From: Hyaloraphidium curvatum
Lineage: Eukaryota; Monoblepharomycota; Hyaloraphidiomycetes; Hyaloraphidiales; Hyaloraphidiaceae
Reading direction: 5' to 3'
Assembly: GCA_025558095.1 (NCBI GenBank)
Contig: JAIVFI010000007.1
Span: 310,001-374,000 of the forward strand
Length of the DNA: 64,000 nucleotides
Below are positions 16,775 through 25,075 of the stretch, piece after piece (position 1 is the stretch's first letter; each line of letters opens with the position of its first letter). The position numbers and the translations under genes were made by a program. Below the pieces are notes generated by a model. That model was not told the origin of the DNA, searched no databases, and worked only from the letters and a program-made list of their open reading frames with translations.

Positions 16775-17782
16775 CTACAATTTCGGTTCGGTCCGGCCCA
16801 AAGGATGCAGTCCACCCGTGCTTGCGTCAATGCGCTTCAGAGGGTGCTCGCCGTTGGCAAAGCCGATAAACGGAGGGTGAATGGAGTAGCCGAGTAGGCT
16901 CTTGAGCTTGTTGGGCATCATCAGCACCTCGGCAAACGGAACCAGCAGGAACTGGTTCTCCTGGGGCCGCAAGTAGGGCTCCAGGTATTGCGCCGTGATG
17001 GCCAGCCGCGGTTTGTCAGAAGTGTTCTTGCCGCCGCCGTGCCAGAGAGTGCTCAGAAAGATCACACCGCTCCCACGCTTCATGACCACGGGAATGATCC
17101 GGTCCTTGGTCGCGTCCGGTATGCGGTCCTGTCCCCAAACGTGTGATCCAGGGACCACGACGGTAGCTCCGTTTGTGGCGGTAAAGTCGTCAATCGCGTA
17201 GATGACAGCGACCGAGAAGGGCTGCCGGGGCCTGGGCACCCGGATGAACGAGTCATCCGTGTGGAGGTTCTGCTGCTCTTCGCCCGGCAGGATCTTGATG
17301 GCCTGGTACGCCGTCAGGAGGTAGTTGGGCTGGAGGACCCGGTCCAGAAGCTCCATCATGATGGGATTGGCAGCCAGGCCGTCGAAAGCGCGGCTCTTGC
17401 CCAGTAGCCCGTAGACGCGCTGCGTCGTGAGCCCTTCAAACGCGTTCCGGCCAAGGGAGTGGCCGTCGAGCAGCGGGGCGAGCCCGGCTTCCAGGCCTCT
17501 GAGCTCGGCCTCCGACAGCATGTCCTCGACGATCACGTAGCCGTCACGGAACAGCGAGGTGAGGCGGGACTTGAGCGGCTCCTTGAGCGCGGCGTCCGCC
17601 TCCAGCTTCCTTATGTGTTCCGCGAACGAGTACTCGCCCGAGCCACTTCCGGGGGCCGAGTGCTGCGGCGTGGTCGAGGGGTCCTTCGATTCGACCGCGC
17701 CGCCGCCAACGAGCGGGCGCCGCATATTCATTGACTTGTGGATATCCGCCGAATCGAACCTATCGTCCCACTTCTTCGACAT
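16775..17782 (-). CDS. PhyH-type Fe(II)/2-oxoglutarate dioxygenase
   Basis: Single exon of 335 aa. The double-stranded beta-helix ligands are visible: His174 and Asp176 in QQNLHTDDSFIR, distal His248 in STLWHGGGKN, and the 2-oxoglutarate-binding Arg259 in KPRLAITAQY. The PGSHVWGQDR loop and GATVVVPGSH are typical of phytanoyl-CoA dioxygenase family members that act on small molecules. The first 55 residues are polar and probably disordered. It converges on the SDR gene, with 39 bp between stops. Substrate unknown; a joint role with the SDR is inference. Confidence 0.9.
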   Translation of the reverse strand: MSKKWDDRFDSADIHKSMNMRRPLVGGGAVESKDPSTTPQHSAPGSGSGEYSFAEHIRKLEADAALKEPLKSRLTSLFRDGYVIVEDMLSEAELRGLEAGLAPLLDGHSLGRNAFEGLTTQRVYGLLGKSRAFDGLAANPIMMELLDRVLQPNYLLTAYQAIKILPGEEQQNLHTDDSFIRVPRPRQPFSVAVIYAIDDFTATNGATVVVPGSHVWGQDRIPDATKDRIIPVVMKRGSGVIFLSTLWHGGGKNTSDKPRLAITAQYLEPYLRPQENQFLLVPFAEVLMMPNKLKSLLGYSIHPPFIGFANGEHPLKRIDASTGGLHPLGRTEPKL

Positions 17783-19574
17783 CGCGGCAGGGAGACAAGT
17801 TGTCTTCGCGGCTGCAGTCGCACTACACTCCGTGTTCTTAGTGTGGCTAGCGGAGTCTAGCCGCCCGCGCGCCTACAACTGACCTAGGCGAACAGCGCAC
17901 CCGGGAGCTTTAGCCGACCCTCGACGCTGCCGATTTGTTTGCAAGCCTTCCGGAAGCGAGGGCAACATGTGGCGCGTGCGGCGGCCGGCGTGGGATGGCA
18001 TTCCGTTTGTACAAACACCGATTGTTCTCTTGAATTCCGCGTGAAACATGCAGGCATGAATCGGAAACGGCGCGGCCGTGGACCACCTGCGCATCGCCGT
18101 AGACCATTTGGGGTATCCGTGAACCGTTCGCGCAGTCGCAAACCTCCTCGCTGCGGCCGTCTCACATGCAATGCAAGAAGCGTTGTGGAAGTTGGTGGAG
18201 AGACTGCAACACAACTGTGCCCGTGATGTTCCTTGTCGTCGCAGGCACCGTCGGGGAGGCCACCGGGCAGCTGCGGAATAGGCTACGGTCCCTGCGACCC
18301 ACTCTTGCGACAATCGTGACCAAAAGAGTCTAGAATGCGGATGGTATGATGTTTACATCGCATGCTGGAGGTGGTATCCTGAAGCATCTCTTTCTGAGCC
18401 GCTTGCGGATTTTTCCTGCCCGCTTCGGGCATCATCCGGAAGATACGACGCAAGGACCCTGCTTATCTGTACTGACTCTTTGCCATACGTGCTCCAGGCG
18501 TCACAAGGATGCGAATCGAAGGTGCGGCAGTCGGTCGTTGACCTGCTATAGCTTGAAGTTGGCGTCCACAGGTCAGATCGGAACGGGACGACGCGACTCG
18601 GGCCACGGGGGTTGTGAAGACAGTATGACCGAAATTTGGGCTCATGCTAGTTTCTCCAGATGCATTGGCCCGGCCGTACATGAAGAGATCGGAAACCGGC
18701 GACTTCTGATGTTTGATTTTGACTTTGCCGACCGCCTCCACGCACACGCTCACGAAGCACCTCAACCTGCAAACGCATCCCCGTTGAAATGGCACTTAGA
18801 CGGTGCCAAAGGCATCTTGGAAGGCGATGCCGACGGCGCGGCTCCTTTTTGCGCCCGATCACCGCCGATACGACGGCAGAAGCTCCGCGGTACTGTTGAA
18901 CCATGGAACTTCCTTTCCGCGACCTGCCACGGCGGGCATCCTGCAGAAAGGTGCCCAAGCTCCCGGTATGCCGCGATGAAAAACGATTGCAAGAGGATTT
19001 CGGCCGTTCAGGGGCCAATCCTGAGGATCCCGCACCGCATCGGTTGCCTGCTTGACCGTTTCGCCTCGCCGAAACACTTGAAGCAACGGAGGTCCTGTGG
19101 TCGCGGCTATCCTCCTCTCGAGCTCAAAGAACAAAATTGCTTTGCCCGCGGGGATCTGGAGCCGCGCTGGCATCCGCCGGCGCGAGGACAATGCGGCGAA
19201 GGTCTGGCGGGAATCCCCTCACAGCTGGCAGCCGAATCGAAAGAAGAGCGGAATCGAGCGCGCGTTCCTTGGCGTTCAATCTCCCAGCCTCTACGTCTCG
19301 GTGCAGGGAGTTTTCGCGGGGACGCGGGAGTCCGATCCCGCTCGCCGGTCCGAGCGTGGCGGACCCCCGGTCACGGGCTGGTGTACCCCTGGCAACTAGG
19401 GAGAGCAGGGAGGGCAAGACTAGCGGCGGGCGGTTGTGGAGCTGTTGCACGGCACTTTGCGCGCCGTCGCACCGGTTTGGAGCTGTAAGGGCCTGCGCGT
19501 CACATCACCCGCGCTGGGTTTGATTTGTGCTCGGACTACGCAATCATCACCGACGTCACGATACTGCAACAACA
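17783..19574. other. 1.8-kb gene-poor region upstream of the Fanzor gene
   Basis: I found no convincing gene. The longest open frame (18346-19488, plus strand) has no recognisable domain and reads like unselected sequence, with scattered Cys, His and Trp and no periodicity. Base composition is visibly less GC-rich than in adjacent genes, especially at 18000-18800. The PhyH promoter must lie at the left end and the Fanzor promoter at the right. The rest may be the left arm of a mobile element, but I see no terminal inverted repeat by eye. Confidence 0.5.
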
Positions 19575-22500
19575 ATGCCACCGCGGAAGCGAGCGGACGC
19601 CGCCACGCCGGCGGGTGGCAACAGCAGTGCGGCGGCGCCCCGAGCAGCCAGAGGGCGCGGACGCGGCCGGGGACGCGGCGGCGGCGCGGCCGACGACGCC
19701 GCGCAGGGTGCCCCCCAAGCCGCGGCGGAAGCAACTCCCGATGCGGCGGGCATCGGAAATCATCCAGAGATCTCAGCAGGCGCCCGCGGGGGTCGCGGTG
19801 GCTGGGCTGCCCGTCGTGGCGCGACCCGGGGCCGCGTCGCCCAGCAAGGAGCTCCGGCACCGATGCCCGCCATCGCCGCATCGCCTCCTGCACGGCAGAC
19901 CACACGGGGTCGAAGGGGTCGTGGACAGAGTATGCGTTGGTCTGCAAACTCTGGCTTTCCTCTGCTCATTTTGTCCCAGATCTGGCGTCTCGTCGCGGAG
20001 CAGCTCCGGAGGGCGCAAGTCCGTCGGACAGAGCGACGATGCCGGCGAGTAACATGGAGTCGCGTTGCATTGGCACCCCGATCTGATTTCGAGCCGCAGG
20101 ACGGACGGGTTCTGGACGAAGAGATGGGGGAAGCTTTCGACGGACTGAACGGTGGCGACTCGGACCAGGTGCGTTTGAAGTTCTCCTTTCTTTCGCATTT
20201 TCTCACGTTCTTCGTCCGCAGATGATGGATGACGAGCAAGGAGGCTTCGCCGGAGGTCGGTCGAGAAGGAAGAGGGAGCCGAGTGACGACGTGCCTCTGG
20301 TGAAGTGGCCTGCACTGCAAGCCCGCGAATCATCCCTGACATCTGCTTCCTCTGCGCAGCAAACCCCTCCCGGTCGACGGCATGCCCCGGGATTACCTGT
20401 TCCGGCTCATCTCGGGCAACCTCCGACCCGTGGCGCCATCGGGCCCCCGCCCGGCCTTCCAATCCCCCCCCACCTGCAGCCCCAAGGCGCTGCTTCCCCG
20501 CCGCAAGGCCTTGCGCAGCCTGCAGGTCCGCCGCCCGCTGCCCCTGCCGCGCAGCCGCCGCCCGCTGCCCCTGCCGCGCAGCCGCCGCCCGCCGCTCAAC
20601 AGCCTGCAGTTCCGGTGAAGCCGTGCCCGTCGTGCGGTCGCACGGATCACCAGCGGAGCAACAGCTTGTTGTGCCCCAATCACAAGCCGTCGGCGCGTGC
20701 AGCCGGCAAGAAGGAGACGTTGGAGAAGGCCAAGGCCGGGGGCGTTGAGAACGTCAAGACCGTGATGAGCACGATCAAGACCTCCATGGAGTCACTCTGC
20801 GCCGACCTTTCTCTGATCCCCGTCTTCCGTTCCCTTGCCGACGAATTCACCAAGTGTGGCGCGGCCGCGTGCTGGCTGTTGGAGAACGCGGTCACCCTCT
20901 GGCTCGATTGGGACAAGAGGCTTCCCGCGCTCGACCAGACGCTGCTGTTCCGCATCCTGATGCTCGTCGTCACGGGCGAGCTCCGCGTGATCCGCTCGCC
21001 CTCACTGGCGGCCCAGTTGCCCTTCCTCGTGCACTCGATCAGGATCTGGCTCGGCAACCAGCGGGCGGAGGCGTCGATCGTTAAGAACCCGGCCGTCAAG
21101 GAGCTGCTGATTGCGACGGACGAGGAGCACGCAGACGCCTACGAGGACGGCCTCAGGTTCTCGTATCCCGTCTTCTACGCGGCCCCGGTCAACGAGGCCG
21201 AGGATGGAGAGAATCTGCCCTACCGGATGGTCCCTAGCTTCTTTTCGGGAGAGTGCGCGCAGATCTTCAACTCCTCGTACAAACAGTACGAGAACAACAT
21301 CGACCTGTACCTCAAGGGCGCGTGCAACCGCAACTTCAAGACCGCTTTCGAGCAGGACTTTGCGCTACTGCAGTGGCAGACTGTGACGGAGCTTCCGAGG
21401 CTTCCCGCGCCCGCACAGCAGCCGGAGGCCCAGCAGGGGCAGGAGGACCCGGGGAACGCGCAGGGACAGGCCGCGCAGGGACAACCGGCGCAGGCGGAAG
21501 GAGGCGCTCCGGCGGCGGGCGCTGACCTCGACCTGGACGACGATGAAGTGGGGGAAGACGGGCATGGACAACCGGTCGCGCTGCCGAAGACGAGGCTCAC
21601 AGCCCTCCGCGACAGCTGCTACACCGCAGCCCACTCGCGCCGCAAGGAGCTTCGGATCTACTCGTTCGGCGGGAACGAAGGAGCGGGAGATGGAGGCAAT
21701 AGGTTCATCACCGAAGCCCGCATGAACGCCGCCATCCAGGCCAACCAGCCGATCGAGTACCAGTACAAGACGCCAGGAATGCGGCGTGGACGGCGATTCC
21801 TGCTGCCCGTGCCCCTGATCCGAGAGATTCTCCAACTCGTCGCCCTCTACAGGTCCCTCTATGTCGCGAAAGAGGGAGAGTACAAGCTCTGGTTCGAAGA
21901 GATGCTCACGGACATTCTGCCGACCGTCCAAAAGCAGTTCCGGAACGATAGGAAGGGGGAGGTGGAGAAGCTGATGCGCCACATTACGGGGACCTACAAT
22001 CAAGCGCACCAGATCGAGAACTCGGTCCAGATCGGCATCGCGGGCTCTCCTCAACTGCTGACGGTCGCCCGCCTCCGGAACCTCGTCAACGCGAACGGCG
22101 CCTGCATGTGGGAGTTCCGATCGATGGGCGGCATTACGCAGATGGCCTTGGATCCGGCGCGGACGGCTCGGCTCCTAGCATTCATCCTTGATGCTATCCG
22201 GAGGCACATGCAGATCGTCCATAACGGGATGGACGGCGCGCCTGATGACTGGAACCGCCTTCTGCGGTTCATTCGGCGGACGAACGACATGATCGCGGCC
22301 TCTTTTGTGCCTCGGCCGCCGCCCGATCCGCGGCCGGCGAACTGGAACGATCCGGAGCCGCCCACCTCGCCGATCCTCCCCCTGTACTCGACAACCCCCA
22401 AGCACATCGACATTGCTGGCGACCAGTGCATCGGGGAGCTGCTGAAGCGGTGGAAGCGGCTGTTTCCGCAGCGGTACCGCGACTTCGAGGTCACCTTCTT

Positions 22501-23939
22501 CCACGGCAACTTTGTCAACCAGCGAACCTCGCCGCATCTGAGGGAAGCGTGGCCGAGGCTGTTCAAAATCAACGACCTCATTTCTGACGGCGACAAGAGC
22601 AAGTACAAGAACGTGCCTCGATCCTTTGCCTTCTCGATCGCGAGCGACAGCGTGGCCGTCTCGGTAAAGTTCGAGAAGATTGTGCCGAAGGTCGTCTACG
22701 ACGCGAGCCAGGTCCGGGCCGCCGACGGGATGGGCGACGAGGACGAGGACGTCGCGAGACGGGCAAGGGCCGCCGAGGCGAACCGCAAGATGACCGTCGA
22801 CGCGCTCAAGGAAGCCGAGGTGCTCTACCAGCGACGGGACGCGGGCGAGATTGAGGTCCGCGAGATTGGTGCCGATCCCGGCGTTAGCGCCATATTGACC
22901 TGTGCGTCGGAGACGGGCGGTGTCCATTCGGACGGGACTCCCGAGTACAGTTTCTTTTCAATCTCTCCGAAGCGCTGGATGTCGGAGATCGGCGTCACGC
23001 AGCGCAACGCAAACAGGAACTGGCAGGCCAGCCAGGACCTGCCGACGCAGCAGCCGCCGGGCGACCTGACTTCGCTGTACGATCCCGCCGGGCGCTCGAT
23101 GGCAGACATCTACAACGGGATCGGATCGAAGCGGCAGACGGACTACCAGCGCGTGCGCGAGCGGGCCGAGTACCGGCTGGAGCACCTCGACGAGATGGTC
23201 GAGTTCGAGTGGAAGTTTGCCCGGCACAAGCTGGAGAACTACCGCGGGGCGCAGATCGGCGTGATCCGGATGGTGGACGAGCTGCTGGCCATGAAGGTCT
23301 CCGGGACGCCGAAGCTCGCCCTGACGAGGACGCAGCGCAAGAACCGGAAGCGCAAAGAGCAGCGGAAGCGGAAGGAGCGGCGGGAGCGCATGGCCGACGA
23401 GCACGGCCCGGGACCGCCCAAGAAGCCCGTGCACTTCATCATCTCGTTGGGCTCGACCAAGACGGGATCGATGAAGTACATCAAGGGGCACGTGCGAGCT
23501 TCTCTCCGCCGGTTCGTGAACGAATTCGAGAGGAGGGACAACGTGCTCCCGATCTTGGTCAACGAGTTCCGCACTTCCAAGACCCACCACAAGTGCGGGA
23601 CGGTGATGCTCGACACGCGCCGGTGCCTCGACAACCGCAGCCAGCGCAAGCGCCGACGGCAGCCCACCCCCTTCCACCCACCGATGTCGATACCGACGTT
23701 CAAACCGTGGTACGTGTCGGACGCGCTCCTGCTTCTTCCCTTGCCGTATCCTGATCCCTCTTGCTCGTCGCAGGGGTGACAGGTGGTGCTACCACGGGCC
23801 TTGCAACCTGGCGTGCGTGGGTCGAGACCAGAATGCTGCCATCAACATGCTCCGCATCTTCGAGCATGCCATGGCGCGCTGGCTACAGAACCACACCTAC
23901 GACCCAAACGACAGGCCTGCTGGCCTCGAGCGCCCGTGA
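19575..23939 (+). CDS. Fanzor-like RNA-guided nuclease (eukaryotic TnpB/OrfB relative), very large
   Basis: The model uses exons 19575-20168, 20222-23709 and 23774-23939, about 1415 aa. From the N-terminus it has RG-rich low complexity, a Pro/Ala/Gln linker, a zinc-knuckle-like CPSCGRTDHQRSNSLLC, a long helical region and an acidic insert. A FAFSIASDSVAVSVKFEK segment comes next. The C-terminus shows a split RuvC fold: IGADPGVSAILT (Asp codon 22874), FIISLGSTKTGSMKYIKGH, VNEFRTSKTHHKCG (Glu codon 23564) with RRC, then the ribbon half WCYHGPCNLACVGRDQNAAINML (Asp codon 23826). The DPG, xNEFRTSKTxxxCG and RDxNAAxNxL order is the Fanzor signature with the relocated glutamate. Fanzors use an RNA overlapping their 3' end to guide DNA cleavage and are mobile-element borne. 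The 5' exon is less certain than the rest. One intron-like segment (19930-19979) would break the frame if removed. Confidence 0.8.
20528..20581 (+). repeat. 27-bp tandem repeat, two perfect copies, within the Fanzor gene
   Basis: Two identical 27-bp units (20528-20554 and 20555-20581) encode a repeated PPAAPAAQP-type nonapeptide. A truncated third unit begins at 20582. It lies in the Pro/Ala-rich linker ahead of the zinc-knuckle motif and looks like a recent replication-slippage expansion. Confidence 0.85.
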
Positions 23940-24172
23940 CCCTCGAGCACCACCACCCGCCGACCTTTCGGTCCCCTTCCACACCTTAAAGTTCGCCCAG
24001 CTGCCTCTGCCCCGAAGGAGGAAAGGGGAAAGAGGGAGTTGCTGGGCAACAATTAGGCGCGGCTCGATACCCATACCCTATCTATGCCCGGTCTCGAGAG
24101 TTTTTCTCTAGATTCCGATGTATACCCCGCCGCGCACTATTGGACACCACTCCCGGCTATACCGTTGGCAAT
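23940..24172 (+). other. Fanzor 3' flank: candidate guide-RNA/element-end region and Trs33 promoter
   Basis: Only 233 bp separate the Fanzor stop from the Trs33 start. A small hairpin is visible at 24038-24050 (GTTGC, TGG loop, GCAAC). A second, weak one (AGAG, T5 loop, CTCT) lies at about 24098-24110. A purine-rich tract precedes the first. In characterised Fanzors the guide RNA overlaps the 3' end of the gene and its flank, so this is the place to look. That assignment is inference from family behaviour, not from a conserved motif. Confidence 0.35.
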
Positions 24173-25075
24173 ATGTCCGCGACGCCGATCGCGTCTCCGG
24201 CGTCTGCGCCGCAGTACAACACGGTGACGCTGACGCCGACGGACCCGGGGCAGCGGTTCGTCGCGGACGCGGTGCTCGAGCTGCTGCTCGCCGAGTGCGT
24301 CGACGCGTTCCACCGCGACGTCGCCGCCGCCGCGCAGCTCGGAACGGACATCGCAGGCGGCGTCGCGCAGCTGAGCCTCGCAGGGGCGAACGGCGCGGGC
24401 GGGAGGCGCGCGCCGCGGTCCGGGGCGCCGGTGCGAAGCGCGGAGGACCTGGACGAGCTGACGGAGAACGAGCGGGAGCAGGCCTACTACAAGCTGGAGA
24501 ACATGGGCTACCGGGTCGGCATGGCGTTCGTGGAGAGGTGGAGACGCGTCGGGCGCGCTGCCGGCGCGATCGGGACGCCGACGCCCGTCCTCCCCGCCCA
24601 GGGCGACGCGGGACCGGCCGCGGTTCATCGACACGCTCGACGTCGTCAAGTTCATCTGCAAGGAGTTCTGGACGTCCGTGTTCCGGAAGCAGGTCGACAA
24701 TTTGAAGACGAACCACAAGGGCGTCTACGTGCTCACGGACAACCAGTTCCGGTGGTTCATGCGGATGTCGACCGACGGCGGCATGGCCGAGACCATCAGG
24801 AAATCCTTCCCCGTGGGATCTGCTGACTCATTTTGGGTGCGATGAACGCGCCTGATCGGGCCCATTGTAGCACCTCGCCTTCCCCTGCGGCCTCATCCGG
24901 GGCGCCCTCGCCAACCTCGGCATCCCGAGCGTGGTCCTCGCAGAGGTCACGGCATTACCGGCATGTGGGTTGATTGTGGTGGTGCGGCATTGTCGCGCCT
25001 GACGGTGCCGTGCCTCCAGGTACCTTCCAGATCAAGGTGACGGAGAAACCGGCCAGCGTCGTGCGGCCCCAATGA
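24173..25075 (+). CDS. TRS33: TRAPP complex subunit Trs33 (TRAPPC6)
   Basis: Exons 24173-24537, 24602-24812, 24871-24964 and 25020-25075 give about 241 aa. The core is unmistakable: YYKLENMGYRVGMAFVER, RPRFIDTLDVVKFICKEFW, VFRKQVDNLKTNHKGVYVL, HLAFPCGLIRGALANLGIP and the closing LPACTFQIKVTEKP. It is a Bet3-like longin-type subunit of the TRAPP Rab-exchange complex, acting in ER-Golgi and intra-Golgi traffic. An upstream in-frame ATG at 24140 would add 11 residues; 24173 is preferred because it begins at a more ordinary MSATP start and leaves room for a promoter. Confidence 0.93.

Follow-up and report, generated by a model that had tools for sequence, protein, structure and literature searches.

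Among eukaryotes, the Fanzors correspond to TnpB and Cas12, and their development as genome editors is under way. In the published work on which we draw here and below, they are defined by a DPG motif and by a glutamate located six residues before a zinc ligand (PMC10711439), and another description of the motif includes [TS][TS]-x-x before the zinc ribbon, RD after it and a D-x(125-275) spacing (PMC3627910). Fanzor1 proteins are mostly of 600-700 amino acids (aa) (PMC11423790), with some reaching ~800 aa (PMC10711439). The RNA that known Fanzors bind combines the 3' end of the element with its flank, and the DNA that they cut matches this flank; in Spizellomyces, the RNA covers a conserved stretch between the stop codon and the right end of the element (PMC10432273). 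Here, we analyse a gene of the fungus Hyaloraphidium curvatum (Monoblepharomycota) in a 64,000-nt stretch of DNA, referred to as the window (contig C7:310001-374000 of the 31.9-Mb genome), whose product is best read as a new, oversized nuclease of the Fanzor lineage with a conserved N-terminal zinc-knuckle region.

Predicted catalytic residues and gene model

The window gene is one of three copies of a family (family 1: window, C21 and C15), and the same genome holds a second family (family 2: C18, C20, C12 and C2) that is 35-36% identical to the first in the C-terminal part, or 33-34% in a second alignment of three copies. Two further homologues, P0003 (941 aa) and P0004 (1079 aa), are 39% and 34% identical to family 2, with query coverages of 94% and 100%; both probably are metagenomic (contigs of 3.8 and 3.7 kb). 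The features of the window gene are as follows, all on the plus strand, the codon positions of the three acids being calculated from the exon coordinates:

19575..20168, exon 1, Arg/Gly-rich low-complexity N-terminus
20169..20221, intron 1, 53 nt
20222..23709, exon 2, encoding a Pro/Ala/Gln-rich linker, the zinc knuckle, the N-terminal domain, RuvC-I and RuvC-II
20300..20359, candidate further intron, in frame and 60 nt long, with splice-like ends
20624..20686, zinc-knuckle-like motif CPSCGRTDHQRSNSLLCPNHK, also represented in P0002-P0004
22874..22876, predicted RuvC-I aspartate D1083 in ADPG, invariant in the alignments of relatives
23564..23566, predicted RuvC-II glutamate E1313 at the alternative position, six residues before a zinc ligand
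23585..23596, predicted first zinc-ligand pair H1320-x2-C1323 (C-x2-C in three of the four family 2 copies)
23710..23773, intron 2, 64 nt, placed as in family 2, where the intron measures 60-61 nt
23774..23939, exon 3, with the second ligand pair (C1366-x4-C1371), RuvC-III and the stop codon
23826..23828, predicted RuvC-III aspartate D1379 in GRDQNAA

Alignment of the two families and their homologues shows the predicted D-E-D triad to be conserved in the arrangement of Fanzors. The window protein and each aligned relative carry DPG, and not D-hydrophobic-G, at RuvC-I. The DPG, the E-x2-TS and the six-residue spacing from the glutamate to the zinc-ligand position are kept in every aligned relative, including homologues that are 30-40% identical: the spacing reads E1313-x6-H1320 in the window protein and E-x6-C in family 2 and P0003. 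In the window protein, TSKT precedes the ribbon and RDQNAA follows it, and D1083 stands 232 residues from the TS, which is within the published range. The last aspartate is always preceded by Arg in the seven spliced copies (it could also be judged in the P0001 and P0004 rows), and C-x4-C-x7-D is retained in all relatives long enough to reach that part. In an alignment of five sequences, the invariant columns include D-P-G, G-x2-K-x-G-S-M and E-x2-T-S-K with the next Cys. The order of DPG, EFRTS and RDQNAA is not attributable to chance, because, when the window protein was shuffled 20,000 times at constant composition, the strict motif, DPG-x(120-280)-E-x2-[TS][TS]-x2-[CH]-x2-C, arose only once, and a looser, longer version that includes the last Asp twice.

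These results bear out much of an earlier note on this DNA, which had proposed a gene of about 1415 aa, three catalytic acids at codons 22874, 23564 and 23826, and the order of the motifs, with GRDQNAA assembled by splicing. Joining 19575-20168, 20222-23709 and 23774-23939 gives exactly 1415 aa, with GT...AG ends at both splices and the stop at 23939. The Cys-rich ribbon of the same note needs amendment: both ligand pairs are present, but the window copy does not have four cysteines, since it reads H1320-x2-C1323 ... C1366-x4-C1371. A letter-strict C4 ribbon is likewise absent in C21, C15 and P0004 (H-x2-C ... C-x4-C), whereas C-x2-C ... C-x4-C is found in three of the four family 2 copies, the fourth (C20) having Phe in place of the second ligand Cys. 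At the first ligand position, all four family 2 copies and P0003 have Cys, and the three family 1 copies and P0004 have His. Histidine is able to ligate zinc.

Public protein P0001 (copy C21; 698 aa, C-terminal part only) is spliced in the same way before RuvC-III, an intron of family 2 coincides in position, and P0004 matches exon 3 (45% identity, E 1.9e-9); a model of the window copy itself was not found in public records. The extra intron at 20300-20359 is likely, because C21 and C15 carry frame-breaking deletions there (2 nt and 1 nt, respectively), and the protein may therefore be of 1395 aa. The gene has been under purifying selection: in exon 2, differences from the window copy fall at third codon positions in 64 of 116 cases for C15 (p 1.1e-6) and 52 of 105 for C21 (p 4e-4), and in exon 1 in 9 of 14 for C15 (p 0.017). 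The window copy is open throughout and C15 across the matched region, while C21 is degenerate in its N-terminal half, with frame-breaking deletions.

Alignment also shows a predicted N-terminal zinc-knuckle region to be common to the window protein and its homologues. The N-terminal stretch of the window protein is 37-38% identical to P0003 and P0004 (E 3.1e-25 and 1.2e-18), and a profile search yielded a zf-CCHC_6 match in one of five family members (E 0.0027). A further ~330 of the 1415 residues, N-terminal of the knuckle, are of low complexity and have no counterpart in the models of the homologues, from which a separate first exon may be missing. Since P0001 and P0002 (a public record fitting the C12 copy) are both named only hypothetical protein, and profiles score below cut-off, the family is easily missed. 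A protein search with window residues 650-1415 gave no match, probably owing to its length window and word limit. Among viral and GTDB contigs, 113 and 67 stretches, respectively, agreed with the patterns used, but tblastn identified no relative among them. In viral contigs, EFRTS patterns at the DNA level gave no match at first and then a single one near a contig end, which was not used.

As a separate observation, residues 772-835 of P0004, though not P0003, match six loci with frames of 666-1230 aa (C31:259624, C2:359432, C1:1445235, C7:694007, C2:417438 and C34:485566; E 0.08-0.7), which possibly represent another family of giant nucleases.

The transposon and its conserved 3' end

Comparison of the family 1 copies with the second family places the window gene in an element bounded by TA / 17841-24136 / TA, with the following features:

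17839..17840, no strand, TA target-site duplication, left
17841..24136, plus strand, whole transposon, 6296 bp, from the alignment boundaries with C21 and C15 and the terminal repeats
17841..17865, plus strand, left terminal inverted repeat, damaged (a ~10-nt piece of C21 is missing), intact in C21 and family 2
18143..19574, plus strand, 5' region with no coding signal, much of it common to family 2 and the C5/C3 element type (75-89% DNA identity)
23940..24136, plus strand, conserved non-coding stretch, candidate omega-RNA scaffold, ending in a stem that closes on the element terminus
24057..24135, plus strand, predicted folds: terminal stem 24057-24063 / 24129-24135 and an inner hairpin
24107..24136, plus strand, right terminal inverted repeat
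24137..24138, no strand, TA target-site duplication, right; a guide would start in the flank beyond

Family 1 comprises its three copies and a 178-bp fragment. Over ~6 kb, the other copies are 94.7-95.1% identical to that of the window, a value that rises to 97-98% in a coding stretch of 881 bp. All three share the right end and then continue into different DNA; the left end is partly eroded in the window copy and replaced in C15. Over both families there are seven insertions with distinct right flanks, and TA stands at every mapped end. A T precedes this TA in five of the six mapped left flanks (p 0.001, assuming a background of 19% T). The family 2 ends are of 26 bp including the TA, with TAGTCCGCTGCCAGTTAGAAATCGGA at the left and TAGTCCGCTTCCAACTACAAATCGGA at the right in inverted orientation; allowing up to three mismatches, this pattern occurs at seven places, all of them ends of the four family 2 elements (none for the reversed control), and does not reach the family 1 ends. 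Inverted ends with a TA duplication, a Fanzor-like gene and no transposase, the combination seen in SPu-1 of Spizellomyces punctatus, are clear in family 2, the left end being partly eroded in the window copy. A hairpin near the 3' end and a CTA terminus had suggested a Helitron, a reading not retained in view of the inverted repeats and TA duplications at both ends.

The 5' region of the window element is not considered to encode a transposase, substitutions there being spread roughly evenly over the three phases, with no codon-phase signal, and Pfam giving nothing over cut-off for the three upstream open reading frames (ORFs) tested. Two family 2 elements have upstream ORFs of 656 and 496 aa (L020:899-2869 and L023:911-2401) with several hydrophobic stretches by eye, a weak third-position excess in some pairs and no Pfam match over cut-off. 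Roughly 0.8-1.1 kb of the 5' region also recurs, at 85-89% identity, in a multi-copy element (L037 on C5, L039 on C3) encoding another large protein with an Arg/Gly-rich start, for which two frames gave no Pfam match.

In the 197 nt that follow the stop codon, the 194 aligned positions show one difference from C15 and two from C21, with three gap positions each. For comparison, the 5' region differs at 96 of 1429 (C15) and 110 of 1424 (C21) positions, and the C-terminal half of the coding region at 60 and 54 of 1909. The 3' part of family 2 likewise has 1-2 differences in 174 positions per pair. A stem closed by the last predicted pairs before the terminus is common to both families, and in family 1 this pairing of the terminus beats 299 of 300 shuffles. 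Rfam, searched over 17500-24500 with E up to 1, gave no match.

A short intergenic space between divergent ORFs holds the element. The ORF on the minus strand (16775-17782), whose start is 56 bp away, is by eye taken to be phytanoyl-CoA dioxygenase-like. A plus-strand ORF resembling a TRAPP subunit lies close downstream (PF04051, E 0.0042, below cut-off, unspliced). The insertion splits the divergent region into 17783-17838 and 24139-24175, which would be less than 100 bp long when empty.

Assignment, proposed mechanism and alternatives

We consider it likely that the window gene encodes a Fanzor-lineage (TnpB-derived) RuvC nuclease of ~1000-1400 aa, carried by a TA-duplicating H. curvatum transposon without a recognisable transposase, for which guidance by an omega-RNA is proposed. 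Apart from the triad and the element structure, a profile comparison points in this direction: hhalign links the RuvC-II/zinc stretch, over 41 columns, to C2:397554, an ORF of this genome that is positive for PF07282, with a probability of 77.6% and a score of 42.5, the best controls scoring 22.5 (200 shuffles) and 22.4 (41 window control ORFs cut at 400 aa). The models of the protein are also compatible with this assignment in register. With VIA-align on both models, four of six SpuFz rows, all weak, end at SpuFz 540, one residue before both glutamates (E541), one further weak row stops one residue earlier in the same register, and a predicted fifth strand of the low-confidence model ends directly before E596; we infer that E1313 would be in register with E541 of SpuFz, whose SpuFz1 triad is D383, E541 and D606 (PMC11423790).

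Several results limit the strength of this assignment. The PF07282 profile (Cas12f1-like TNB) scores 15.1 bits with the whole window protein and 17.8 bits with its C-terminal piece, under the gathering cut-off of 26.3 bits; it matches all six C-terminal members, each below cut-off (best E 0.0011), and none of its 18 matches in the genome is one of the seven copies studied. Pfam, NCBIfam and PHROGs, searched with the single protein and with alignments, returned only weak or sub-threshold matches of TnpB/transposase type among other weak ones, and sequence searches of the PDB did not find a Fanzor chain, SpuFz1 included. The predicted models are of low confidence (predicted local distance difference test, pLDDT, 42-44), with Fanzor rows of weak Z that do not rise above unrelated ones. 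As regards the 3' end, family 2 shows equal conservation in exon 3 (0-2 differences in 163 positions) and almost as much in the left 0.8 kb of its elements (1.7-2.0%), the terminal pairing of family 2 beats only 267 of 300 shuffles, and the overall fold z-scores are unremarkable. The Fanzor-type nuclease proposed in the earlier note is supported in part, by the DPG, the glutamate spacing, the TA transposon and the hhalign link. Of the two checks that the note suggested, the profile search matched in all members, though under cut-off, and the fold comparison with SpuFz1 gave rows consistent in register, though indistinct from unrelated ones.

The 18 PF07282 matches themselves mark other Fanzor-like loci, ten of them 199-aa frames with equal or nearly equal scores and one a 972-aa frame (C14:724943).

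Nuclease activity of the window protein is plausible from its residues, and from family and layout we infer that it may be guided by RNA. The ~195 nt after the stop would give rise to an omega-RNA that extends at its 3' end beyond the element, which would make the flanking DNA the guide. The nuclease would then cut the matching empty site, with the TTA in front as adjacent motif, and repair from the filled copy would restore the element, which would itself be moved in trans by a TA-specific transposase. A probable role of the large N-terminal region is to bind nucleic acid or a partner and to extend the recognition lobe. As a tentative extension, rather doubtful at present, the H. curvatum families and the two relatives from other contigs could form a deep branch of their own in the Fanzor lineage, the 'giant Fanzors', whose RuvC effector gained a conserved zinc-knuckle module of ~500 aa at its N-terminus, the protein handling the transposon (or its RNA) and cutting under RNA guidance.

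Among the alternatives, it is unlikely that the gene is a Fanzor remnant, domesticated or decaying, that is inactive at present and conserved only through recent spread. The frame-breaking deletions of C21, the zinc-ligand Cys lost in C20, the damaged left end of the window copy and its His as first ligand would suit such a remnant; against it stand the open frames of the window copy and of C15 across the matched region, the third-position excess, and a triad kept across lineages that are only 30-40% identical. Somewhat less probable still is that the RuvC protein is the element's own TnpB-derived transposase, with the N-terminal knuckle binding the inverted ends and the RuvC core cutting at TA without any RNA guide. 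The knuckle is indeed of a DNA-binding-like kind, the three upstream ORFs gave nothing over the Pfam cut-off, and the family 2 end pattern reveals no separate partner element. This explanation, however, leaves the conserved 3' end unaccounted for; TnpB is dispensable for transposition in three systems cited in PMC3627910, and TA duplications and inverted ends are also reported for the single-ORF Fanzor element of Spizellomyces (PMC3627910). Finally, an unrelated large transposon protein in which DPG, EFRTS and RDQNAA resemble a Fanzor by chance, as the sub-threshold profile scores and weak structure matches might suggest, is very improbable given the rarity of the motif among shuffles, the same residues being invariant in four lineages and a profile match well above its controls.

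Comparison with known Fanzors

If a Fanzor-lineage nuclease, as we prefer to read it, the protein represents a lineage from which, through its conserved additional N-terminal domain, one could learn how such nucleases acquire modules. It would also offer a testable case of whether such a module sets the guide length, the target motif or the coupling to transposition. A literature search, with subscription papers mostly outside its reach and the result therefore no proof of novelty, found no paper combining Hyaloraphidium with Fanzor, nor Fanzor with a zinc knuckle.

The Fanzor-like ORF linked by profile, C2:397554 (a 691-aa frame, PF07282 36.5 bits), shares E-x6-CxxC ... RD with the window protein. 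It differs in its four-cysteine ribbon, its score above the Pfam cut-off and the lack of a DPG in the 399 aa read.

In size, the window protein (1395-1415 aa) and the homologue models (941-1079 aa) contrast with the 600-800 aa of published Fanzors, in keeping with the earlier remark that the former is far larger. PpFz1 of Parasitella, a Fanzor1 with an FRI insertion, is enlarged by ~100 aa in its RuvC part (PMC11423790), while the extra length of the window protein is mostly N-terminal.

SpuFz1, encoded by SPu-1 of Spizellomyces punctatus, is a close parallel in layout. Both have a fungal host, inverted ends, putative TA duplications and a nuclease as the only gene (PMC3627910), and both combine DPG, the alternative glutamate and RD with a conserved non-coding stretch from the stop codon to the right end (PMC3627910, PMC10432273). 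SPu-1, however, is of ~2.1 kb, with one ORF for a 633-aa protein, whereas the window element is of 6.3 kb, with two or three introns. Unlike SpuFz1, moreover, the window protein has a zinc knuckle and a large N-terminal domain, a His as first ligand, a C-x4-C pair and 230 residues from the first aspartate to the glutamate.

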